The notes below the pieces were generated by a model, which searched no databases, was not told where the DNA came from, and saw only the letters and a program-made list of their open reading frames with translations. Below are positions 4,115-29,781 of a stretch of DNA of 64,000 nucleotides, one piece after another. Each line of letters opens with the position of its first letter. Within the stretch, counting starts at the first letter, position 1. Made by a program: the position numbers and the translations under genes. The stretch comes from a virus. Location of the stretch: the IMG/VR virus record IMGVR_UViG_3300025647_000019, positions 29,965-93,964 of that record, one strand, 5' to 3'.

Positions 4115-6334
4115 ATGGCAGAAATATTTGTTTCTCCGGGCGTATATGTTCGCGAGAGAGATTTTTCCTACTATGTATCAAGTGTAAATGAATCTTCATT
4201 AGCATTAGTAGGAGAAACAAAAAAGGGTCCAGCATTTTTACCTACAATGATTTCTAATATTTCAGAATTTAAAGAAATCTTTGGTAACTTAGATCCAAAT
4301 AAAATTCTAGGCTACTCAGCTAAGAATTATTTTAAGTATGCAAATCGAGCATATGTAACTAGAGTCTTAGGAAGCGATTCTTTAAGAGGGACAAATAACA
4401 TTCTTGCTATTGTTTCTTCTGGGGCTTCTCCAGTTGTATTAGCAACATTCCTTTGCTCTGGGGCTCTTCAAGTTAACATTACAGGATCAAGTACATCTTT
4501 AGATGCTGATTCAACTTTCTATATGAATATAGGGGGGGTTTATAGTGGTAATGTAAGCTTATCAGATGCTAATTCCCCAGTATATGTAGAAACTTTATTC
4601 CCAAGAACGAATACTGTAAATGCTACAACTATTGCTTTACAACATGTATTCCCAATTCAAACTGACGGTCTTCTTGTAGCAACTGGAACTTCAAGTTGTG
4701 TTACTGGAACTACTTTAACTGATGGGCCATTTGATGTAGAAGGATATCTTGCAGCTTCAACTCCGATGATTGTTGGTAATACAGTTGATGCAACAAATGC
4801 TGGAACTAGTTTGTTCACAGTAACCACTATCAGTCATGGACAAGAAGCTAATAAAGACGTAAAAATCACTATTGAAGATATTGATACTGGAAATACGACA
4901 TTCAGTCTTGGCGTTCGTCAATTTAGTGATACAAATGAAGCTCCGATCTATCTTGAAAAGTTTACTCAACTTTCAATGGATCCAACAAATACAAACTATA
5001 TTGCAAGAGCAATTGGTGATAGTAGAGATGGATCTGGGGATTATGCTCAAGTTTCAAAATACATATATGTTACTGTTGAAGCTGGAGCCCCAGCAACGGC
5101 TCTTCCATATGGATTCAATGGAGTTTCTGCACCTTGGAGTGGACAAACTGGATTCCCACAATGGCCAATGGACAAAACTTATGTAACAACTACTTCACTT
5201 AAGAAACAGATTTTAGGATTAAATTTTGATGCTATTGATCCAGATCATATTATGGGTGGTTGGTCAAGTTCATGGAATATTGGAGCATCTTCAGATAAAA
5301 CTCTGACAGGATTCCACTTGAATACTAGTTCAAATGCTACTTTATATCAAGTTCCAACTGTGGATTATATTCCATCAGGTAAAACTTATATGAAGTTTGG
5401 TGTACCTCTATTGGGAGGAAATGATGGTTGGGTACAAAGTGCTCAAACAAGATATACTTTATCTGGAACACCAACTGATTCTCTTGTTGCTTCATATCAA
5501 ACTGCATTTGATCTTATTTCAAGTACAGAAGATTATGATATCAACTTACTAGCAGTACCTGGTGTTGCTTTTGATAATACTATTGGTCAGAATGCTATTG
5601 CTCTTGCAGAATTAAGAGCTGATACTTTCTATGTTGGAGATTTCCCAAGTAACTATACCACAGTTGCTGGAGCAGCTAATGTTCCTTCAAATTCTAGTAT
5701 TGATACAAACTATGCTGCAACATATTGGCCATATGTCAAGATTTATGATTCTGATAACATGCAAGACGTAATGATTCCTCCAACCCCACAAGTGTTGGAA
5801 GCCATTGCTTATACCGATCAAGTTTCTTACCCATGGTTTGCTCCAGCAGGAATGAACCGTGGATTATTAACTGATGTTATCAAGACTCAATATAAATTAA
5901 CTCAAGACGATCGGGATGATCTTTATACTAATAAGATCAATCCAATTGCTACTTTACCTGGACAAGGTTATGCTGTTTGGGGTCAAAAGACTCTTCAAAC
6001 TAGAACAACAGCCTTGGACAGAATCAATGTAAGAAGAATGCTTCTTTATATTGAAAAAGTAATTGCTGGAGCAAGTCGTTATCTTGTATTCGAACAAAAT
6101 GATTCTAAAACTTGGGATCGTTTCAAGAATATGGTTCAACCAGTTCTCGATCGAGTTAAGATCAAACAAGGACTATATGACTTCCGTGTAAAAATGGATG
6201 AAACAACCAATACTCCAGATATGATCGATCGTGGTCAAATGGTTGGAGAAATTTATATTAAACCAACAAAATCAGCAGAAGCAATTCTGATTAACTTCAA
6301 CATTATGCCAACTGGTGCAGTGTTTGAGGAATAA
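4115..6334 (+). CDS. 18: Contractile tail sheath protein (T4 gp18-like)
   Basis: 739 residues. The first 20 residues (MAEIFVSPGVYVRERDFSYY) are the N-terminal beta-hairpin arm typical of gp18-type sheath proteins, followed by SLALVGETKKGPAFLPTMI and a segment on building the ring (EFKEIFGNLD). The C-terminal 200 residues (WGQKTLQTRTTALDRINVRR, then MLLYIEKVI; WDRFKNMVQPVLDRVK; GEIYIKPTKSAEAILINFN) form the conserved sheath core that contacts the tube and links subunits. The middle Thr/Ser-rich part is the variable outer domain. Longer than T4 gp18 (659 residues). GC content is higher than neighbours in places, fitting high expression. Confidence 0.93.
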   Translation: MAEIFVSPGVYVRERDFSYYVSSVNESSLALVGETKKGPAFLPTMISNISEFKEIFGNLDPNKILGYSAKNYFKYANRAYVTRVLGSDSLRGTNNILAIVSSGASPVVLATFLCSGALQVNITGSSTSLDADSTFYMNIGGVYSGNVSLSDANSPVYVETLFPRTNTVNATTIALQHVFPIQTDGLLVATGTSSCVTGTTLTDGPFDVEGYLAASTPMIVGNTVDATNAGTSLFTVTTISHGQEANKDVKITIEDIDTGNTTFSLGVRQFSDTNEAPIYLEKFTQLSMDPTNTNYIARAIGDSRDGSGDYAQVSKYIYVTVEAGAPATALPYGFNGVSAPWSGQTGFPQWPMDKTYVTTTSLKKQILGLNFDAIDPDHIMGGWSSSWNIGASSDKTLTGFHLNTSSNATLYQVPTVDYIPSGKTYMKFGVPLLGGNDGWVQSAQTRYTLSGTPTDSLVASYQTAFDLISSTEDYDINLLAVPGVAFDNTIGQNAIALAELRADTFYVGDFPSNYTTVAGAANVPSNSSIDTNYAATYWPYVKIYDSDNMQDVMIPPTPQVLEAIAYTDQVSYPWFAPAGMNRGLLTDVIKTQYKLTQDDRDDLYTNKINPIATLPGQGYAVWGQKTLQTRTTALDRINVRRMLLYIEKVIAGASRYLVFEQNDSKTWDRFKNMVQPVLDRVKIKQGLYDFRVKMDETTNTPDMIDRGQMVGEIYIKPTKSAEAILINFNIMPTGAVFEE

Positions 6335-8321: not shown

Positions 8322-8810
8322 TTAATAAGCTAGGATTGCTCTATCATATCTTATAGATACACTAATATCAGTTAAATCATCAGATCCATGATCTAGATCC
8401 CCAAAATCTACAGAAGTGATCATTGCTCCATAGATGACCCATTTTTCAACTTCTTCACCAGCTGGATCTAAGATTTTCAGAGAAAGATTCTTTTTATAAT
8501 TGGTAGCATATCCCATTTTACCAGTTGAATATTCAACGTGTTGTCTAACCCATTCCATTACCTTTTGGGAAGTAGAAGGACCAATGACATCAATAAATTT
8601 AATGTCCATTGATTCCCACTGTGTTTTACCAGCAACCCAAGATGTAGTATTCATATAATCAATTTGTTTTTCTGCAATAGTTAATTTTGGTCTTGCAGCA
8701 ACTTGAACCATCCATTCTGCAAAATCTAAGTCAGCAGGGAATTCAAGTATAAATCTATTTTTTCTTTTAGGTTCCAGGTCAACTGGAATTGGTCTCAACA
8801 TTTCAGCCAT
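8322..8810 (-). CDS. 19: Tail tube protein (T4 gp19-like)
   Basis: 162 residues, close to the length of T4 gp19 (163). The sequence starts MAEMLRPIPVDLEPKRKNRF and continues as a tube-fold beta barrel with features usual for the family: NRFILEFPADLD, the WMVQVAARP turn before the first helix, a WESMDIKFIDVIGPSTSQ segment, and a C-terminal beta strand pair (GAMITSVDFGDLD, then DLTDISVSIRYDRA). It polymerises into the inner tail tube inside the sheath. Unusually it is on the opposite strand to sheath, baseplate and tape measure; start ATG with GGAGAAC upstream on the minus strand. Confidence 0.9.
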   Translation of the reverse strand: MAEMLRPIPVDLEPKRKNRFILEFPADLDFAEWMVQVAARPKLTIAEKQIDYMNTTSWVAGKTQWESMDIKFIDVIGPSTSQKVMEWVRQHVEYSTGKMGYATNYKKNLSLKILDPAGEEVEKWVIYGAMITSVDFGDLDHGSDDLTDISVSIRYDRAILAY

Positions 8811-14171: not shown

Positions 14172-14915
14172 ATGGTTATTTGTAATATTGTTTATGACAA
14201 GAAAGACGATTGTCTTCAGAAGTATCTTGATCTTCCATTTATTAATGCTGCAGATAAACATTGGAAAGTTAAAAGAAATATTCCAACGCTAATTTATGGA
14301 TTTAAATTAGCAAAAGAATTATATCCAAATGAAATTGATCCTCATAATAATTGCATCAGAACTAATGGTCTTTTAAATTGGTCGTATAGCATTGAAGAAT
14401 TTGAAAATAAATGTTGGCTTGATTCTTGGATTACACAATCCATTGAAAAACATTTAAGGTGTGTTCCGAATAATATTGATGTTATTTTTAATAAATCTTT
14501 TGAATTGAAAGCTTTTTTGGAAAAAATAGATCCTTTTCCTCTTGTCCATGCAGGTAAACATGAAATTTACATTGCAGAAAAAAGGGATTGGGATAATGCT
14601 TGTATTATTCATTCCTTTCAAATGGACAATCTGACTTATGCTGGAATTGATCCAGAAACTTTCTATTACGAATTGTTGAATTATTTCGAAAATAGATGTG
14701 TAGTTCTTTCTACAAATGACATTGATTTTACTAGAATAAAAAATACTCCGATCTCATTTCAAGATTTATCTTTGGCTAGTCAAAATGAATCTATAGATAT
14801 TCAAAAGATAATCAGAACATTTTCTTCGTTTATTCCTCTTTCAAAAGAAATGGTTCTTACTTATTTTCTGAAACATGACCTTTATTCTAAGACCCTTTTT
14901 CACAGTTTTTTATGA
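14172..14915 (+). CDS. Unknown protein upstream of mini-polymerase
   Basis: 247 residues, mixed alpha/beta, acidic and Asn/Asp-rich, with no membrane segment and no motif I can name. AAGGGGG lies upstream of the ATG. It is 100 nt before the small family A polymerase gene and separated from it by the shared ATACTATAGTCC leader motif. The repeated aromatic pattern (RTNGLLNWSY, CWLDSWITQS) hints at an alpha-helical fold. A partner of the polymerase is possible from location alone. Confidence 0.5.
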   Translation: MVICNIVYDKKDDCLQKYLDLPFINAADKHWKVKRNIPTLIYGFKLAKELYPNEIDPHNNCIRTNGLLNWSYSIEEFENKCWLDSWITQSIEKHLRCVPNNIDVIFNKSFELKAFLEKIDPFPLVHAGKHEIYIAEKRDWDNACIIHSFQMDNLTYAGIDPETFYYELLNYFENRCVVLSTNDIDFTRIKNTPISFQDLSLASQNESIDIQKIIRTFSSFIPLSKEMVLTYFLKHDLYSKTLFHSFL

Positions 14916-14930
14916 TTTAAATCTTTGTCC

Positions 14931-14948
14931 ATACTATAGTCCGTAGGA
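14931..14948 (+). promoter_or_regulatory. Leader motif ATACTATAGTCCgTAGGA (copy 1)
   Basis: 18 nt identical, except one base, to 54111-54128; both sit just before a ribosome site and a gene. It includes a TACTAT element with TTTATG 17 nt upstream (14909-14914), so it may be a promoter -10 region rather than an operator. Confidence 0.45.
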
Positions 14949-15015
14949 AAGAACTAAATTGAGTACAGACAAAAAAAATGAAGAAAAACATATGGTTTTT
15001 AAGGAGAACGTATCA

Positions 15016-15903
15016 ATGAATGATACCAAAAGACATTATGATAGATTAATTGCTGCTTCTAAGGCAGAACAGATCTTGGGTAAGAGTAAAATTTATGTAA
15101 ATGTCCCGGCTTTGAAGATCATAAATAAGCTTAGACCAACAAAAGAACGAAATCAATATCTGATTAATTCTATTGATACAGGATATATTCAAACCAAATA
15201 TAGTTCTAAAGATAAGATTACTGCTAGGATGTTTACTACTCCCGGGAATTTAAATCTAATCACTCTTTCAGATGAGGATATTTTAAATTGTATTGTTTCA
15301 AAATATGGAAGAGAAGGTATTTTAGTTGAATTGGATTTTAAACAATTCGAACCGACAATTATGTCAAAGCTTATAGGATACTCATTTGATGGGGACATTC
15401 ACACAATAGTAAGTAAAAAATTAAAAATGACTCGTAATGATGCTAAAATATTAAACAATGCTTATTTTTATGGAGCATCAGAAGAAACTATCAACCAAAA
15501 ATTTTATGTAGGGGGGGATATAAAGGATTATCTTGATATGATGGAGGACTTTAATAATGCAAAAGATAAATTTTTAGAACCCCATTTAGAAATGTATGAA
15601 AAAAATGGATATATTATTAATCCTTATGGAAGAAAAGTGTTTCCAAGAGAAAAAAGAAATATATTTAATAACATGATACAATCTACTGGTTCTGATATCC
15701 TGATTGATACTATCATCAAATTAAATCAAGAAAACTTAAATGTAATCTTACACCGATTTGATTCTTTATTTTTTGATTTAAAGAAATTAAATATATATTT
15801 AGAATTAGAGGAAATAATTACTATAATGACTGAGAATAATTATAACTTAGAGGTCTCAGTTTTAGTGGGAAAGAATTTAAATAAACTTAAGAAACTCAAT
15901 TAA
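15016..15903 (+). CDS. Minimal family A DNA polymerase (palm and fingers only)
   Basis: 295 residues with all three family A polymerase motifs in order: motif A DFKQFEP (Asp107, Glu112 in the place of the PolI steric-gate Glu710), motif B R140-x3-K144-x7-Y152-G153, the NMIQSTGSD helix (residues 219-227, like PolI QGTAAD), and motif C HRFDSLFFD (Asp249). A nucleic-acid-contact segment (ITARMFTTPGNLN) precedes motif A. There is no exonuclease domain and little or no thumb; usual PolA enzymes exceed 550 residues. ATG 15016 follows AAGGAG at nine bases; an in-frame TTG at 14959 with AGGAAAG is the alternative start. Catalysis is inferred, not shown; motif C has Ser after Asp, as in T7 RNA polymerase. 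Confidence 0.7.
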   Translation: MNDTKRHYDRLIAASKAEQILGKSKIYVNVPALKIINKLRPTKERNQYLINSIDTGYIQTKYSSKDKITARMFTTPGNLNLITLSDEDILNCIVSKYGREGILVELDFKQFEPTIMSKLIGYSFDGDIHTIVSKKLKMTRNDAKILNNAYFYGASEETINQKFYVGGDIKDYLDMMEDFNNAKDKFLEPHLEMYEKNGYIINPYGRKVFPREKRNIFNNMIQSTGSDILIDTIIKLNQENLNVILHRFDSLFFDLKKLNIYLELEEIITIMTENNYNLEVSVLVGKNLNKLKKLN

Positions 15904-15906
15904 AAT

Positions 15907-16302
15907 ATGAAATCAATACTTCTATTGTCGTTTATAAACAAAGACCAAATCTATTTAGCATTAGATAAAATATCCGAAACTTTAAATATAAAAAAAAGTC
16001 AAATTTTTGTATTTAAAATCCAGGATACTGAAGAATTGATTGTAACTTATAATTTAAATCCAAATTATACCAATATTAAATTTAATTCAATTTGGCCAAA
16101 TACTATTTCTATTCACAGAAAAAAACAAACTAATACATTATATTCTTTAAATGCTATGAACGAACTTATTAAGAAAAAAAATGGTGGGGTTTTTAAAAAA
16201 GAATATGCTCTTCATTGGGAAGATTTTAAAAATTCTTTAATGATAATTAAAAACGGGAAACTTAAAATTCTAAAAATTCAACTTGTCAAAATAAACCAAT
16301 AA
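15907..16302 (+). CDS. Small conserved-looking unknown next to mini-polymerase
   Basis: 131 residues, lysine-rich and basic at the C-terminus (KNGKLKILKIQLVKINQ). The N-terminal part looks like an alpha/beta domain (KSILLLSFINKDQIYLALDK); the middle has NTISIHRKKQTNTLYSLNAM, a run that reads as a conserved core. It begins 3 nt after the polymerase gene, so both are co-transcribed. No catalytic motif recognised; a polymerase partner or nucleic-acid binder is only a guess from charge and position. Confidence 0.5.
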   Translation: MKSILLLSFINKDQIYLALDKISETLNIKKSQIFVFKIQDTEELIVTYNLNPNYTNIKFNSIWPNTISIHRKKQTNTLYSLNAMNELIKKKNGGVFKKEYALHWEDFKNSLMIIKNGKLKILKIQLVKINQ

Positions 16303-16309
16303 AAAAAGA

Positions 16310-16338
16310 TTTACAAATTCCAAACAACGTGTTAAAAT
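16310..16338 (+). promoter_or_regulatory. Sigma70-type promoter before gp32
   Basis: TTTACA (16310-16315), 17-nt spacer, TAAAAT (16333-16338). One of six promoters here with the same -35 form and identical spacing. An 80-nt leader precedes the gp32 start. Confidence 0.75.
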
Positions 16339-16418
16339 AGGGCACGTTTACAACAGTGGTAATATTGCCACAACTCAACGTACAGCGATCAGCGGTACAA
16401 CTTTATAGGAGGTCCAAT

Positions 16419-17219
16419 ATGGACATAAAAGCACTCAAAGAAAAACTAAACAAACTTCAATCTCAAAACAAAAGCGGCGGATCAAATATTTTTCTTAAGC
16501 AAACTGAAGAGCCACAGATGATTCGAATTCTACCTTATCCTCACAATCCGGATAAAGATCCATATATTGAAATCTATTGGCATTATGATATTGCTGGCTA
16601 TAGATCTATTTTCTGTCCTCAGGAAAATCTTGGCGAGCCATGTCCCATTTGTAAATTGTCAGCAGAATTTCTTTCAATGGGAGGAAAGGAAAATTGGAAG
16701 ATTCATAAACAACTAGAAGCAAAAATTCGTACTTATTCCCCCGTAATTGTTCGGGGTAGAGAAGAAGAACTAGGGGTTAAGCTTTATGGTTATGGTGTAC
16801 AAATTTATGAGGATCTCTTGACTACTTCAGTTGAAGAAGGGGATATTGCAGATCTTAAAACTGGTCACGATTTAAGTGTCAAGCAAATTCCAGTTGGAGC
16901 GCCAGGAAATGACACTACTTATCCAAAGCCTATTTGCAAGGTTCAATTTAAAGAATCACCAGCACTTGAAGACACTGCTCTTTTGAAAAAGCTTTTGAAG
17001 AGTATTCCTGATTATAAGGAGGATCGAGAAGCCTTTCCCCTTATGACTTATCAAGAGCTATCTGAAATTGTAAATAAGCTTAAAACCGAAGAAGATGAAA
17101 GTTCCTTTGAAGATGATATGGATGATGTTTTTGAGGAAAAGACTGAAAAGCCTAGTACCTCAGTTAAAGCTTCAACCGTTGATATTGATGAACTTGATGC
17201 TCTTCTAGAGGAAGATTAA
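16419..17219 (+). CDS. 32: Single-stranded DNA-binding protein (T4 gp32-like)
   Basis: 266 residues. N-terminal basic helix (DIKALKEKLNKLQSQNKSGG) for cooperative binding, a core OB-fold with a zinc site (His55, Cys66, Cys75, Cys78; the C-P-I-C turn is clear), then an acidic flexible tail (DEDESS-like run from residue 225 and a final LDALLEED) that binds replication proteins. This is the full gp32 architecture, slightly shorter than T4 (301). The start ATG at 16419 follows GGAGG at 16408; the open frame extends upstream to a GTG but that part overlaps the leader. It coats ssDNA during replication and recombination. Confidence 0.92.
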   Translation: MDIKALKEKLNKLQSQNKSGGSNIFLKQTEEPQMIRILPYPHNPDKDPYIEIYWHYDIAGYRSIFCPQENLGEPCPICKLSAEFLSMGGKENWKIHKQLEAKIRTYSPVIVRGREEELGVKLYGYGVQIYEDLLTTSVEEGDIADLKTGHDLSVKQIPVGAPGNDTTYPKPICKVQFKESPALEDTALLKKLLKSIPDYKEDREAFPLMTYQELSEIVNKLKTEEDESSFEDDMDDVFEEKTEKPSTSVKASTVDIDELDALLEED

Positions 17220-17565: not shown

Positions 17566-18693
17566 ATGGTAAAAAAAGAAGATTCTTTTGAAGACGAAAT
17601 GATTGATGCTTTATCGTCTTCATTTAAGAAACAAAGTTCAAATGCCAAGGCATCTTATTTGTGGCAATCATCTTCAAACATTAAAGATTATATTTCAACG
17701 GGAAATCCTCTTTTAGATATGTGTTTATCTAATAAGCCCAATGGGGGTTTACCAGTTGGAAGATTGACAGAAATATCAGGAGGGGAAGGTGCTGGTAAAA
17801 CCTTACTTGCATCTTATGTTTTAGCCAATACTCAGAAAAAAGGGGGTATTGGAATTTTTATTGATACAGAGCATGCTGCATCAATGGAAGTTTTAAAAGA
17901 AGTTGGGGTTGATACTGATAAATTAGTATATGTCCAATGTGGCTGTGTTGAAGAAGTTTTTGCTGCTATGGAGACTATTGTTGGAAAAATTGTGGCATCA
18001 GGAGCAGGAAAAGAAAGACCTATAACCATTGTTTGGGATTCAGTTGCAGCCACTTCAACAAAGGCAGAAGTGGAGGGTGATTATGATCAACAAACTATTG
18101 CTATGGCGGCTAGAGTTATATCTAAAGGACTTAGAAAGTATATTCCTCTTTGCAGTGCTCATAATGTTTGCTTGGTATTTTTGAATCAATTAAGAACTAA
18201 TATTAGTAGTTTTGGGCATGCTGAAAAATTCACGACCCCCGGAGGAAAAGCAATTCCATATCATGCTAGTATTAGATTGAGACTTTCTCATTATAAAAAG
18301 ATCAAAGATCCTAAAACAAAGGATGAAATTGGGCGAGAAATTAAATGTGAAGTTAAGAAAAACAAAATTGCTCCCCCTATGAGAACAACATATCATACGA
18401 TTCGTTGGGGTTCAAAACCTGGTGCATGGTTTGATATTGGTGCTACTCTTTGGGAAGCGGGAATTACTTCTGGACTGTTTAATAAAATTTCAGCTCAAAA
18501 ATATGGATTTATAACTTCCGAAGGGGAAGAACTTGAATTTACAAAAAAGGTTTTTAATGATCTAGTTAAAGATAAAAATTTCTACAATGAAGTGGTTAGA
18601 TTATTAGAAGGATATTATATAATTGGACCGGATAATGCTCCAGATCCAGATGAACTAATAAAAGAAGAATCAGATGAAGACGAAGGGATTTAA
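17566..18693 (+). CDS. uvsX: RecA/UvsX-type recombinase
   Basis: 375 residues of the RecA core: lead-in STGNPLLDMCLSNKPNGGLP, Walker A GGEGAGKT (72-79), the IGIFIDTEHAAS strand, Walker B-like ITIVWDSVAA, and loop-2 region with NQLRTNISSFG. It forms ATP-dependent filaments on ssDNA and drives strand exchange and recombination-dependent replication. The sequence reads closer to bacterial RecA than T4 UvsX does (GPSKSFKS in T4). The acidic C-terminus (ESDEDEG) is a usual regulatory tail. Same operon as gp32. Confidence 0.9.
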   Translation: MVKKEDSFEDEMIDALSSSFKKQSSNAKASYLWQSSSNIKDYISTGNPLLDMCLSNKPNGGLPVGRLTEISGGEGAGKTLLASYVLANTQKKGGIGIFIDTEHAASMEVLKEVGVDTDKLVYVQCGCVEEVFAAMETIVGKIVASGAGKERPITIVWDSVAATSTKAEVEGDYDQQTIAMAARVISKGLRKYIPLCSAHNVCLVFLNQLRTNISSFGHAEKFTTPGGKAIPYHASIRLRLSHYKKIKDPKTKDEIGREIKCEVKKNKIAPPMRTTYHTIRWGSKPGAWFDIGATLWEAGITSGLFNKISAQKYGFITSEGEELEFTKKVFNDLVKDKNFYNEVVRLLEGYYIIGPDNAPDPDELIKEESDEDEGI

Positions 18694-18695
18694 AT

Positions 18696-18920
18696 ATGAC
18701 AAACTCAAACAAAAACCACAATTTTTTAGTTACATTAAAAATGGATGGAAAGATTATTGCAACACGTAACACGACTGTTACTGAATATAATGACAATGTT
18801 ATATATTCTTTGAGACTAAATCAGCTCATGAATGAAATGTCTGATTTAATTGTTGAAGCTCTTAAAGATAAAAGTATAGATGAAGCCCATCGTCTTCTTA
18901 AGAAGGGACAATACAGTTGA
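18696..18920 (+). CDS. Unknown small protein
   Basis: 74 residues; strand-rich N-terminus (FLVTLKMDGKIIATRNTTVT) and a helical C-terminus (IVEALKDKSIDEAHRLLKKG). No known motif. Sits between the recombinase and the 5'-3' exonuclease and overlaps the latter's start by 4 nt. Possibly a small replication accessory, by location only. Confidence 0.5.
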   Translation: MTNSNKNHNFLVTLKMDGKIIATRNTTVTEYNDNVIYSLRLNQLMNEMSDLIVEALKDKSIDEAHRLLKKGQYS

Positions 18921-19930
18921 AAAAACGAAGAATAGTTCTAATAGACTATTACAATCTCTTTATAAGAAATTGGCAAGTTTGCCCTTTGACTGATGAAAAT
19001 GAAGAGCATTTTGGGGCAGTCGTTGGTAGTTTAAATTCTATTAAATCCTTTATCAAGAAAACAAATCCCACTGATGTATTCGTTATAACAGACGGGGAAA
19101 ATGCTGCATTACGTAGAAAAATGATGATGAAGGAATATAAAGCTAATAGAAAAAAGGAATGGGCCCGAGGAGCTTGTCGGGCCTATGACTTTTTAAATGA
19201 ACAAGATCAAAAAGACAATTGGACATTTCAGAAAAGAAGACTAGATGAATATCTTTCTGTCTTGCCTATAAAAACTATTTCGATTCCATATCTTGAAGCA
19301 GATGATGTTATAGCTCAAATTTCTAATGTAATGAATAATGAGGAAACTCAAATAGTAATTTATTCATCAGACGCTGATTATCAACAGCTAATAAATGAAA
19401 ATGTTTTTTGTTATAATCCCATCACAAAAAAATTATTGAATGAAGAGAAATTTTTTAAGAAACACGGCATCCCGCCATATAATTATATCTATCTAAAGTG
19501 CATCCAAGGGGACGCTTCAGATAATGTTACAGGAATAAAAGGAATTGGTCCTAAAACTCTAATAAAAATGGTACCGGAAATAGTTGATACAAGAATAGAT
19601 TCAATTCAAGATTTTTTAGAAATATGTCAACATGCAATTGATAGTGGATCTAAAGTCTATACAAAATCAATGCTGAATAAATTCAAATTATTGATAGAAA
19701 ATGAAAGTAAATTACAATTAAATTATAATATAATGCAATTATCAGATGTTGATATTTCTCAGCAATCTAAGGATTTAATAAATCGGGTTATTGAAGAAGA
19801 TGTTACACCCTTTAGTAAAACTAAATTAAGAGCTATGTTTTATAATGATGGAATGTATAATAACGTAAAATATCTCACTGATTGGTCAACTATGTTTAGT
19901 AAATTAACATTATATGGGAGAAATAAATGA
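18917..19930 (+). CDS. rnh: 5'-3' exonuclease / RNase H (FEN1-like)
   Basis: 337 residues with FEN-family features: N-terminal LIDYYNLF, VFVITDGEN, the acidic YLEADDVIAQ, YSSDADYQQL, and the helix-3-turn-helix DNA clamp GDASDNVTGIKGIGPKT. These carry the metal-binding Asp/Glu residues. In T4 the homologous RNase H removes RNA primers and flaps from the lagging strand. Starts at TTG 18917, overlapping the previous stop, with AGAAGGG nine bases upstream. Good agreement with the T4 rnh size (305). Confidence 0.85.
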   Translation: MKKRRIVLIDYYNLFIRNWQVCPLTDENEEHFGAVVGSLNSIKSFIKKTNPTDVFVITDGENAALRRKMMMKEYKANRKKEWARGACRAYDFLNEQDQKDNWTFQKRRLDEYLSVLPIKTISIPYLEADDVIAQISNVMNNEETQIVIYSSDADYQQLINENVFCYNPITKKLLNEEKFFKKHGIPPYNYIYLKCIQGDASDNVTGIKGIGPKTLIKMVPEIVDTRIDSIQDFLEICQHAIDSGSKVYTKSMLNKFKLLIENESKLQLNYNIMQLSDVDISQQSKDLINRVIEEDVTPFSKTKLRAMFYNDGMYNNVKYLTDWSTMFSKLTLYGRNK

Positions 19931-20802: not shown

Positions 20803-22248
20803 ATGACCAGTTTTGAAAAGTTTGGAGAAAACTTTCAATCTAAAATTATATATCATTTGGTAACTGATTCTGATTTCGCTATTCAAGTTCTGGAGATTCT
20901 AAAGCCAGAATTTTTTAGTCAAGAAAACCATAGAACCATAGCTCAATTAATTATGAGATGGAATGAAAAATATGGAACAATACCTTCTTTCGAAAATCTA
21001 AGAACTCTGTTAGCAAAATTATATAAAGAAGATGAAATTTTATCCGAATATATGACTTCGTTAGTTTCTGATATTGAGTTTAAAACCAACTTACTTGATA
21101 AAGCTCATGTTATAGATGAAACAGTGGAATTTTGTAAGCAACAAGCATTTAGAAATGCTATTTTTGAATCCGTTGAATTAGTTAAAAAAGAAAAATACGA
21201 TGAGATTTATTCTATCTTTCAAAAAGCAATGGTTGCAGGAGAAAAGAAAAATATTGGTCACGATTATTTCCACGATATGAATAAAAGAGTTATGGAAAGA
21301 AGATTTCCTATAGCTACAGGGTTCCAAATGCTAGATCCAGTTATTTCCGGTGGATTATCGGGAGGAGAATTGGGTCTTATTTTAGCAGGAACTGGTATTG
21401 GTAAATCTATGATTTTAGTTCATCTTGCTGCTGAAGCATATAAGCAAGGTAAAAAAGTTCTTTACTATACTTTAGAACTATCAGAAAAAATAGTAGGACT
21501 TAGAATTGATTCAAAGATTGCAGGAATTCCTTTATCAAGTTTATTAACAGATATTGATGGTGGATTGAGAAACAGAATCAAAAATGAAATCACTAAAGAA
21601 AGAAACAAACATCAGATTAAACCAGAATTAATAATCAAGAATTTTCCAACTAAAACAGCTTCAATTCAAACATTAAATAATCATTTACGAATGCTAGAAA
21701 ATAAGGGTTTTATTCCTGATATTATTTTTGTTGATTATGTTGATCTTCTTAGACCAACTAATAGATATGGGGATAAAAGATTTGAGCTTGAAAGCTTAAC
21801 TGAAGAATTAAGAGGGATGGCTGGAACTAGAGATATTCCTTTATGGTCAGCTTCTCAAACAAATAGAGAAGGCTGGGATACTTCAATAGTGGGATTAAAA
21901 ACAATTTCAGAATCAGCAGCAAAAGCATTCGTTGCAGATTTAGTTATATCAATTGGTCGATCACAAGCTCTTGTTGATGAGGGAAGAGCTTGCTATTATA
22001 TTGCAAAGAGTAGATTGGGTCCCGATAAACTTCCCTTTACGGGAGAATTTGATACTTCATTAGTCAATTTTACAATTGATTCGGAAGGTTTTGATGAAGA
22101 AGAATTAAGAGAACAAGATCGTAGATTTGCAATGAATAGAGCAGTTGAAAGGGTTCAAAGTCAAGCCCCAACTGAAACTTCAAACAATAATTTAAATGAG
22201 ATCTTAAGAACATTGGATATGAATATAAGTAATGGAGATACAGAATGA
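20803..22248 (+). CDS. 41: Replicative DNA helicase (DnaB / T4 gp41-like)
   Basis: 481 residues. N-terminal helical domain (1-160) typical of DnaB hexamers, then a RecA-fold ATPase: GGLSGGELGLILAGTGIGKS with Walker A around 195-202, KVLYYTLELSE, Walker B PDIIFVDYVDLL, and the arginine-finger region VADLVISIGRSQ. It unwinds DNA at the fork in the 5'-3' direction on the lagging strand. Size equals T4 gp41 (475). No primase domain is fused, so primase is expected elsewhere. Confidence 0.88.
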   Translation: MTSFEKFGENFQSKIIYHLVTDSDFAIQVLEILKPEFFSQENHRTIAQLIMRWNEKYGTIPSFENLRTLLAKLYKEDEILSEYMTSLVSDIEFKTNLLDKAHVIDETVEFCKQQAFRNAIFESVELVKKEKYDEIYSIFQKAMVAGEKKNIGHDYFHDMNKRVMERRFPIATGFQMLDPVISGGLSGGELGLILAGTGIGKSMILVHLAAEAYKQGKKVLYYTLELSEKIVGLRIDSKIAGIPLSSLLTDIDGGLRNRIKNEITKERNKHQIKPELIIKNFPTKTASIQTLNNHLRMLENKGFIPDIIFVDYVDLLRPTNRYGDKRFELESLTEELRGMAGTRDIPLWSASQTNREGWDTSIVGLKTISESAAKAFVADLVISIGRSQALVDEGRACYYIAKSRLGPDKLPFTGEFDTSLVNFTIDSEGFDEEELREQDRRFAMNRAVERVQSQAPTETSNNNLNEILRTLDMNISNGDTE

Positions 22249-27251: not shown

Positions 27252-27280
27252 TTTACATTTGTTGATAAGTGGTGTATAAT
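27252..27280 (+). promoter_or_regulatory. Sigma70-type promoter before DNA polymerase
   Basis: TTTACA (27252-27257), 17-nt spacer, TATAAT (27275-27280). 32 nt before the polymerase start. Confidence 0.8.
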
Positions 27281-27312
27281 TGTATTATATACCATTTTTA
27301 TTAGGAGAGGTT

Positions 27313-29781
27313 ATGGCAAACACAACATATAAAATTTCTAGAATATGTTCTTCGTTTAATTATGGGAGATGGAATATCCATAAATTTGGCTATACTCCTA
27401 AAGGGGAATTTGTAAAAGTAAAGTCCGATTTTACTGATTATTTTTATTTTAATTCCGAAGAAGTTTCAAATTTAATTCCCTTTAATAAATTAGATCAAAA
27501 TGACTATGGGGATTATATGTCGGTTTATGGAAAACCGACTCGTAAAATTGAATACAGATCAATAAAAGAAAAAAATCAAGTTGTATCTCAATATCCTGAA
27601 TCAGTATATGAAGCAGATGTTCCCCCCGAGTTTAAATACCTTATGGAAATAAAACATGAATGGGCAGATTCATCTGAAAGACATATTCTATATTTTGATA
27701 TTGAAACATGGGCAAAAGATATAAGTTCTACTCCAGAAAGACCTGATGCTCCCATCACTTCTATTCAGCTTTACTCTACTAGGTTTCAGAGATACTTTTT
27801 GTTTGCTTGGCATCCGGAAAAGACTTCGGATTTCTCAGTTCCTAAAATTCTCCAGAATGAAGAAGTAACTTATATCTTTAGTAAAGACGAACGTGGAGTA
27901 ATTGAATCCTTTATTGCTTTTTTTGAAGAATATTCCCCAGATATTATATCTGGATGGTGGTCTGCTGGATTTGACTTACCATATATTCTTAATCGATGTT
28001 CCAGATTAAACATTGACTATAATCGTTTATCTCCAATAGGAAAAGTAAATCACTATCAAAAAAAGGGAAACTGGAAAACCTATATCAGTGGTGTTGATCA
28101 CATTGATATGCTTGAAGCAATAAAAGACATTGGATATAATCTTCCAAATTATAAACTTGCCACTGCTGCAAAAGAAATCCTTCAAGATCCTGATATTGAA
28201 AAGCTTACTGAAGTTACTTGGGCAGATTGGATGGACAATTTTGGGGGCTTTATAAAATACGGTCTTAGGGATGTCGAGATCCTTAAAGAAATAGATGAAG
28301 AACTAAAGATTTTTGACCTGTACTGCACGATTCAGAAACTTACAAACATTACTACGCTCGGTGAAGTTATGTTTAAATCGTCCGTTGTAGATAAGTTTAT
28401 TTTGACTGAAAGCCACGGAGAATATGTTTTCCCAACTCGTTCAACTTCATCTAGACAGAAATATATGGGTGCACATGTGATGGATCCTAAACCGGGTCTT
28501 CACAAGGATGTAGCTATTTTTGACTTTGCTTCGCTTTATCCAACATCCATTATGACGTTTAATATCTCTCCCGAGACTTTCATTTGCTCAGATAAGCAAC
28601 TTGAAAGAAGAGGATTAACAATAGATGATGTTATCGAGAATTTAAACAAAAGAAACATTCCATTTATCGATACAGGATATGATACAGAACTATTTGGAAA
28701 TAGATACTTGTTTTATTCTCACAGTCATAGATTGGGGATTTTTCCCAAGATCCTTAAAAAGATGTATGAAGAAAGAAAAGCAATCAAATCCGAAATGAGA
28801 AATGAATCTGATGAACATAAATTGAATACTTTAGATAAGCATCAGCAAGCAATTAAATTGATTCTTAATTCTGCTTATGGTGCTTTAGGATTTAATTATT
28901 TTAGATTATATAAACCTGAATGTGCTGATTCTATTACTTACTTTGCTAGACAAGCATTATATTTTGCCCAGGAAAGTTTGCAAAAAGAAGGAATGGAAGT
29001 TATATACCAAGATACAGACTCTGAATTTGCTCTTCAAAATGGGAAAACTGCTACCGAAATTAATATGTGGGTTGACCGATTCAATGGAAGTGAAGTTATT
29101 GAATTTGCTCAGCAATATAATAATGGGGAAATAGAATCTTTTGAAGATTATCTTACTCTTGAAATGGAATATGAAAAAGATCTAGAAAGAATTTATTTCG
29201 GTTATGATGATAAATTAAAAATTGGTGTTAAGAAAAGATATTATGGGATTATTCGTAATTCCCGAAAGAAGTATATTCGGGGATTGAATATCATTCGAAA
29301 AGATACTCCAGAATTCCTAAAAAAGAAATTAGATGTTCTTTCTGAATTGGCAGTCAATGATGCTCTTCAGATAAAACATCTTGAAACAATCAAAAAATTG
29401 ATAAAGCTTCAGGATCTAAAAAATATCGGAATAACTAAAGCATTTGGAAAAAGATTCGATGCTTATGATAAAACTCAGCCACAACATTTAGTTGCTGCTA
29501 AATGGGCAAATGAAATTTTAGGTTGCAATATAAACCATACACATAATCCATATTTGTTTTATGTTATTTCAAAATGTGAAGATCATCTTCCCAAAGGAAA
29601 AAGAAATAAAGCAATTTGCTTACTTGAGGAGGATCTAGAAAAGGCAAAAACAAATCCGGATCTTTTCGAAATCGATTATGACATATATTTCAGAAAACAA
29701 GTATTAGATCAACTTGAGGAGTTTGATCTTATTCCCTCTGTTAAAAATGTTATTGCAGAATATAAGGAGAAAATGAAATGA
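27313..29781 (+). CDS. 43: Family B DNA polymerase (T4 gp43-like)
   Basis: 822 residues with all family B motifs: exonuclease DIE (Asp129, Glu131), FDLPYILNR (Exo II), YGLRDVEILK (Exo III); polymerase motif A DFASLYPTS, motif B LNSAYGALG, motif C YQDTDSE. Both polymerase and 3'-5' proofreading residues are intact. The replicative polymerase of the phage. AGGAGAGG upstream of ATG 27313. Slightly shorter than T4 gp43 (898). The end has a short PIP-like hydrophobic tail (EFDLIPSVKNVIAEY). Confidence 0.95.
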   Translation: MANTTYKISRICSSFNYGRWNIHKFGYTPKGEFVKVKSDFTDYFYFNSEEVSNLIPFNKLDQNDYGDYMSVYGKPTRKIEYRSIKEKNQVVSQYPESVYEADVPPEFKYLMEIKHEWADSSERHILYFDIETWAKDISSTPERPDAPITSIQLYSTRFQRYFLFAWHPEKTSDFSVPKILQNEEVTYIFSKDERGVIESFIAFFEEYSPDIISGWWSAGFDLPYILNRCSRLNIDYNRLSPIGKVNHYQKKGNWKTYISGVDHIDMLEAIKDIGYNLPNYKLATAAKEILQDPDIEKLTEVTWADWMDNFGGFIKYGLRDVEILKEIDEELKIFDLYCTIQKLTNITTLGEVMFKSSVVDKFILTESHGEYVFPTRSTSSRQKYMGAHVMDPKPGLHKDVAIFDFASLYPTSIMTFNISPETFICSDKQLERRGLTIDDVIENLNKRNIPFIDTGYDTELFGNRYLFYSHSHRLGIFPKILKKMYEERKAIKSEMRNESDEHKLNTLDKHQQAIKLILNSAYGALGFNYFRLYKPECADSITYFARQALYFAQESLQKEGMEVIYQDTDSEFALQNGKTATEINMWVDRFNGSEVIEFAQQYNNGEIESFEDYLTLEMEYEKDLERIYFGYDDKLKIGVKKRYYGIIRNSRKKYIRGLNIIRKDTPEFLKKKLDVLSELAVNDALQIKHLETIKKLIKLQDLKNIGITKAFGKRFDAYDKTQPQHLVAAKWANEILGCNINHTHNPYLFYVISKCEDHLPKGKRNKAICLLEEDLEKAKTNPDLFEIDYDIYFRKQVLDQLEEFDLIPSVKNVIAEYKEKMK

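Follow-up and report, generated by a model that had tools for sequence, protein, structure and literature searches.

What does a phage that has its own PolA, PolB or PolC polymerase do with a second, crippled-looking one? The puzzle is raised here by a locus from a T4-like phage, contained in a record that is a 94-kb fragment; the window, by which we mean the whole stretch of 64,000 nucleotides that was analysed, is the final 64 kb of that record. An earlier note on this DNA had described a three-gene module (ORF1, ORF2 and ORF3 in the following), with a minimal family A polymerase in the middle, next to the baseplate genes of a phage that also has a full PolB. The features of the region are the following, in window coordinates.

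14172-14915, plus strand: ORF1, an open reading frame of 247 aa.
14935-14946, plus strand: promoter -10-like element TATAGTCCGTAG (tentative, by sequence likeness) in the gap between ORF1 and the polymerase.
15001-15006, plus strand: AAGGAG ribosome-binding site, 9 nt ahead of the ATG at 15016.
15016-15903, plus strand: ORF2, a divPolA1-like minimal family A polymerase of 295 aa, from Pfam, PHROG and profile matches.
15334-15351, plus strand: motif A, D-F-K-Q-F-E, with the catalytic Asp D107 and the gate Glu E112 (numbering of the 295-aa chain, as in the next three lines).
15433-15474, plus strand: motif B, R140...K144.......Y152-G.
15679-15687, plus strand: Q-S-T (Q222) of the Q-x-T helix, the Gln being present in 63 of 63 aligned proteins.
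15754-15765, plus strand: motif C, R-F-D-S, with the catalytic Asp D249, also present in 63 of 63.
15907-16302, plus strand: ORF3, the conserved partner, of 131 aa, with the motif H-R-K-K-x-x-N-T-x-Y-T/S-x-N-A-x-N.
16310-16338, plus strand: sigma70-like site TTTACA-17-TAAAAT (extended -10) ahead of the SSB gene, from a promoter scan in which such sites of the region were not above shuffles.
16413-17219, plus strand: single-strand DNA-binding protein (SSB), phrog_1192.
17566-18693, plus strand: UvsX/RecA-like recombinase.
18917-19930, plus strand: 5'-3' exonuclease of the FEN/Pol I N-domain type (PF02739, 2.7e-28).
20803-22248, plus strand: DnaB-like replicative helicase.
27280-29781, plus strand: regular family B DNA polymerase (PolB), the likely replicase (E 1.4e-52).

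The full PolB of the earlier note is thus present, and ORF3 does begin 3 nt past the ORF2 stop (15907 against an end at 15903), as it had said. If translation of ORF2 began at the in-frame TTG of position 14959 instead, the chain would have 314 aa.

Direct searches with ORF2 retrieved only ordinary PolAs at about 25% identity, and single-sequence searches of IMG/VR and of the genome contigs with the window proteins and their neighbours gave no match. It was the SSB that opened the family, through its match to, and the synteny with, Microcystis phage Mel-JY01 and Flavobacterium phage immuto, a cultured phage with Flavobacterium sp. LMO8 as host. The kind of polymerase is already known, since Yutin et al. 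2024 (Virol J 21:200, PMC11348598) describe divPolA1 in their main text from 14 phages, the immuto gene included. With the immuto protein as query, 312 candidate divPolA1 stretches were obtained in IMG/VR by a short-peptide search whose reach is limited to close relatives of immuto, and an alignment of ORF3 gave at least 586 stretches; 80 of each set were kept. As the loci were selected through either of the two genes, and close relatives are frequent among them, the locus counts given below are not independent events. Two candidates were discarded along the way: L204, considered as a fourth member of the window lineage, encodes an ordinary PolA of 810 aa in which a uracil-DNA-glycosylase domain is apparent, and a 428-aa gene of Mel-JY01 (L006 17406-18692), considered as the polymerase homologue and located between the polymerase block and the SSB gene, matches S-adenosylmethionine lyase (PF23780, 4.4e-10), the true homologue lying three genes upstream.

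The assignment of ORF2 to family A is supported by several profiles. Pfam DNA_pol_A matches it with an E-value of 1.5e-12 and 47.6 bits (curated cut-off 34.3), the PHROG DNA polymerase phrog_17 at 2.4e-15, and a profile of 62 full-length divPolA1 proteins, from which the window protein was left out, at 3.3e-22, which is far above chance. In the whole 94-kb record there is one family A match, ORF2 itself, and one PolB match. The protein retains D107, E112, R140, K144, Y152, Q222 and D249, and the alignment of 63 proteins has D257, R223, Y310, Q370 and D401 (immuto numbering) invariant throughout, R223 being the Arg that precedes motif A. These matches and residues bear out the minimal family A polymerase with motifs A, B and C and the Q-x-T helix proposed earlier, steric-gate Glu (E112) included. 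Judged from its conserved residues, the active site appears intact, and ORF2 may be expected to be enzymatically active.

The sugar-gate column (H262 in immuto) holds His in 60 of the 63 proteins and Glu in three, which are those of the window lineage only, formed by the window and the loci L096 and L177. This lineage also keeps the motif B Arg, as in Pol I, and shows Asn, Ser or Met at a motif B position that is mostly Phe in the other members. One alternative idea is that ORF2 is a primer maker or a specialised RNA polymerase using NTPs. T7-type RNA polymerases arose from family A and the F-D-S of motif C recalls their H-D-S, a resemblance to T7 RNA polymerase that the earlier note had pointed out; together with the gate His of most members, this is what speaks for an NTP-using enzyme. 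The F-D-S is nevertheless close to the Y-D-S/A of divPolA1 and does not indicate an RNA polymerase, the gate Glu is kept in the window lineage, and in the PDB the family finds its best matches among Pol I DNA polymerases, with Klenow first (2.2e-17 for the profile of 63 relatives). Furthermore, a DnaG homologue is found in six of the seven divPolA1 genomes searched, a sister genome of L096 among them, and immuto has its own, so that divPolA1 is unlikely to be the primase; in the window record, a 94-kb fragment, no DnaG-type primase was found. We thus consider an RNA- or primer-making role very unlikely.

ORF2 is further marked by what it lacks. No match to DNA_pol_A_exo1 occurs anywhere in the 94-kb record, the alignment of ORF2 to the divPolA1 profile begins at profile position 204, and the chains of the window lineage have about 295-315 aa vs 415-450 aa in the divPolA1 relatives. 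The profile of 63 relatives, window included, aligns with the Klenow thumb base (weakly, 5.2 bits) and resumes at the palm, leaving out about 90 residues of Klenow in between, so the thumb of ORF2 is predicted to be truncated, on the evidence of sequence. The absent exonuclease and the cut-down thumb were both correctly noticed in the earlier note, which had also considered that homologues might reveal the frame to be a remnant of a longer PolA. This has turned out half true: the relatives are longer and related phages do have full PolAs, as one would expect of a decaying, functionless piece of a former full-length enzyme; however, the short form is kept with every catalytic residue in three divergent phages (window, L096 and L177), it is an open frame with a ribosome site, and it has a fixed partner gene. 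Because the short form is stable in phages in which the polymerases of L096 and L177 are only about 32-38% identical to that of the window, it is not explained by decay, and a remnant is scarcely credible. The window thus adds a lineage whose polymerase is cut down to an exonuclease-free core of 295 residues.

The genes around ORF2 indicate where it belongs. Baseplate genes precede the polymerase in the window, immuto and Mel-JY01, as seen by comparison of the whole region, but rather than being tied to them, as had been proposed, the polymerase is the first gene of a downstream replication block whose order, polymerase-ORF3-SSB-UvsX-FEN-DnaB, is common to the three phages. The order in immuto is gp001 (a 441-aa PolA), gp002, gp003, SSB, RecA, 5'-3' exonuclease, DnaB and RNR; gp002 is homologous to ORF3 (33% identity; phmmer 7.9e-21) and a 129-aa gene of Mel-JY01 is another clear homologue. 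Among the tail genes of the window, which lie on the plus strand, the tail tube gene (8322-8810), homologous to that of immuto (4.6e-28), is on the minus strand.

Of the divPolA1 loci that have over 1200 nt of downstream sequence, all 60 contain ORF3, and the ORF3 loci in which no polymerase is in view all have less than 2.9 kb of upstream sequence. It overlaps the end of the polymerase gene in 27 of 144 pairs and lies within 50 nt of it in 91 (together 118 of 144), and the SSB gene is found downstream of it in 107 of 107 loci with room. As an independent check, ORF3 was looked for in 50,697 phage records and occurs in six only (four immuto records, LR756508 and Mel-JY01); exactly these six have a divPolA1 that aligns with most of the immuto protein. 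Where length permits, short MAG contigs of the genome collection with ORF3 show the phage block; they most likely come from phages and were binned with hosts. The divPolA1-ORF3 pairing is, then, apparently fixed in the loci examined. The co-occurrence of the three genes, which the earlier note proposed to check, holds for ORF2 and ORF3 at every checkable divPolA1 locus, whereas ORF1 is restricted to three genomes. By inspection, genes resembling GIY-YIG or HNH homing endonucleases are located between divPolA1, ORF3 and SSB in several phages (L048 9376-10026, L059 9283-9933, L079 9458-10084, L080 9450-10133 and L096 7727-8518).

Comparison of ORF3 with PHROGs and the PDB gave nothing convincing and no recognisable family. 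The likeliest role of ORF3 is that of a dedicated cofactor, for instance one holding the polymerase on DNA. A stronger version, in which the polymerase obligately consists of two parts, ORF2 and ORF3, the latter replacing the missing thumb or clamping the enzyme on DNA, is a real but tentative possibility; if true, a thumb-less Pol I core of about 34 kDa with a 15-kDa partner would be among the smallest family A DNA polymerase holoenzymes, and its relatives would be spread over hundreds of aquatic phages. In any case, the apparently fixed partner makes the role of divPolA1 testable.

ORF1 directly precedes the polymerase in the window, L096 and L177, and was found at none of the other divPolA1 loci. 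Its position in three divergent phages, and a length like that of the approximately 200 N-terminal residues missing from ORF2, would suit a split-off N-terminal half, an exonuclease remnant, the true enzyme being ORF1 plus ORF2 and possibly ORF3. The ORF1 profile, however, reaches a probability of only 0.4% against the N-terminal part of divPolA1 and 0.1% against divPolA2, there is no DNA_pol_A_exo1 match, and the two genes lie at least 43 nt and up to about 255 nt apart, the gap of L177 containing a terminator-like hairpin followed by the promoter-like TTTACT-17-TATACT. We therefore regard the split enzyme as unlikely. The gap of L096 contains TTTACA-17-TATACT, and the element TATAGTCCGTAG of the window resembles TATACTTTCGTAG of L096 and TATACTTCCGTAA of L177; the promoter scan of the window called no site at TATAGTCCGTAG, and as counts of promoter-like sites are not above those of shuffles, a promoter ahead of the polymerase stays tentative. 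ORF1 is probably a separate unit at the end of the upstream transcription unit, rather than part of one module with the polymerase: it is confined to this lineage, a terminator stands between the two genes in L177, and it has no detectable likeness to the N-terminal part of the longer relatives. A group I intron between ORF1 and ORF2, hinted at by ACTATAGTCC, was set aside as no Rfam match was obtained. In L096, a 27-bp repeat (GTACCTAATATCTAAAAAGCAGTTAAA) is present three times in tandem directly ahead of the polymerase start, at approximately 5978-6058.

The companions of divPolA1 narrow down its role. PolB stands beside it in the window, Mel-JY01 and the genomes of L096, L130 and L172, a full PolA in immuto and the genomes of L048, L056, L073 and L030, and PolC in LR756508. 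The last is a 484-kb phage with divPolA1 at L095 12920-14236, together with ORF3 and a PolC-type polymerase. Since the companion is PolA, PolB or PolC depending on the genome, divPolA1 is not bound to one replicase, and standing beside them it is unlikely to be the replicase itself. As PolB is the likely replicase of the window phage, the role of ORF2 is probably accessory. The earlier suggestion that the second polymerase must do something else is thus upheld as regards an accessory role; nothing speaks for template-free or tail synthesis, and primer synthesis is unlikely in view of DnaG.

We propose that ORF2 is probably an accessory DNA polymerase of the divPolA1 kind, of low processivity and without proofreading, serving gap filling and recombinational repair. 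In this mechanism, an enzyme predicted to consist of thumb base, fingers and palm only would use dNTPs to extend 3' ends at primed gaps of single-stranded DNA, as suggested by the intact two-Asp active site and the sugar-gate Glu. Synthesis would take place in short distributive patches, owing to the missing thumb tip, and would not be proofread, the exonuclease domain being absent. SSB would sit on the gap, UvsX would carry out strand invasion, and primers or flaps would be removed by the separate 5'-3' exonuclease, so that two activities joined in one protein in bacterial Pol I, exonuclease and polymerase, would be encoded by separate genes of one block. The block may thus serve to fill gaps, replace primers and repair DNA by recombination, with PolB replicating the genome. 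Against this proposal, motif C no longer has the His and Glu found on either side of the catalytic Asp in Pol I, and motif B is altered in the window lineage. Gene neighbourhood does not prove a pathway, and a 5'-3' exonuclease gene is commonly found nearby in phages lacking divPolA1 too, such as T4. The same features can be read differently, as those of a lesion-bypass or mutator polymerase whose open, non-proofreading site copies damaged templates or raises the mutation rate together with UvsX; the missing exonuclease and thumb tip, the changed gate and motif B residues and the UvsX and SSB neighbours are consistent with it. No sequence feature is specific to lesions, though, and the 5'-3' exonuclease and DnaB of the block suit ordinary gap filling equally; we consider this reading rather unlikely.

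The accessory repair polymerase proposed here has known relatives. According to the main text of the paper that defined it, divPolA1 is extra to a regular A, B or C polymerase, keeps the palm residues, has a truncated thumb and a 3'-5' exonuclease domain inactivated by replacement of all three catalytic Asp, lies upstream of conserved replication genes, and, in line with the proposal made here, is viewed as an active polymerase with a part in replication; in that main text, no discussion of a partner gene or of an exonuclease-free lineage was found (PMC11348598). Reported there from 14 genomes, divPolA1 is far commoner, to judge from the 312 candidate stretches. In profile-to-profile comparison the window lineage matches divPolA1 with 99.3% probability (E 4e-20, 66.9 bits), a small regular PolA profile with 98.3% (2e-14, 42.8 bits) and divPolA2 with 91.8% (E 7.5e-7, 18.3 bits over 71 columns); by profile bits, ORF2 is nearer to divPolA1 than to regular PolA. 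In the tree, the window lineage and divPolA1 form two separate groups (SH-aLRT 98-99), with a weakly supported root against the regular PolAs (64) and long branches that call for caution.

ORF2 shares with divPolA1, for example gp001 of immuto, its standing as a second divergent PolA beside a regular PolA, PolB or PolC, the kept palm site, the thumb truncated by sequence, the lack of proofreading, the block of SSB, RecA, 5'-3' exonuclease and helicase, and the ORF3 neighbour. It differs in having no exonuclease domain at all where divPolA1 has an inactivated one, in its 295 aa, in the gate Glu in place of His, in the motif B Arg that it keeps, and in having Phe where divPolA1 has Tyr ahead of the motif C Asp. 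Because the exonuclease domain with replaced Asp is absent, we file ORF2 as a sister lineage of divPolA1 and not as a typical member; among the proteins seen here, the window lineage is the shortest, exonuclease-free branch of the divPolA1 group.

divPolA2, known from Barba phages, ICP1 and other Vibrio phages, is likewise a second PolA-like palm beside PolB, and its motif A, D-F-K-A-F-E, recalls the D-F-K-Q-F-E of ORF2; the profile similarity is weaker, however, and kinship with the Barba and ICP1 proteins is not what the comparison gives. The main text of PMC11348598 ascribes to divPolA2 an N-terminal domain of its own and a variable gene context. Relatives of divPolA2 occur in ICP1 (L182; L181 25469-26761) and in many Vibrio, Aeromonas, Shewanella and Pseudoalteromonas phages, 266 records in all, some with two places, and are called "hypothetical protein" where annotated.

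With Pol I and its Klenow fragment, ORF2 has in common motifs A, B and C and the Q-x-T helix, but neither the exonuclease domains nor the thumb tip; the 5'-3' exonuclease is a separate gene in the window phage, and H-D-E of motif C is replaced by F-D-S. T7-type RNA polymerases have the same family A palm and the Ser after the motif C Asp; they are absent from the listed PDB matches of the family profile, and ORF2 does not belong among them, being a protein of 295 aa only that lacks the N-terminal promoter-recognition part and keeps the gate Glu.
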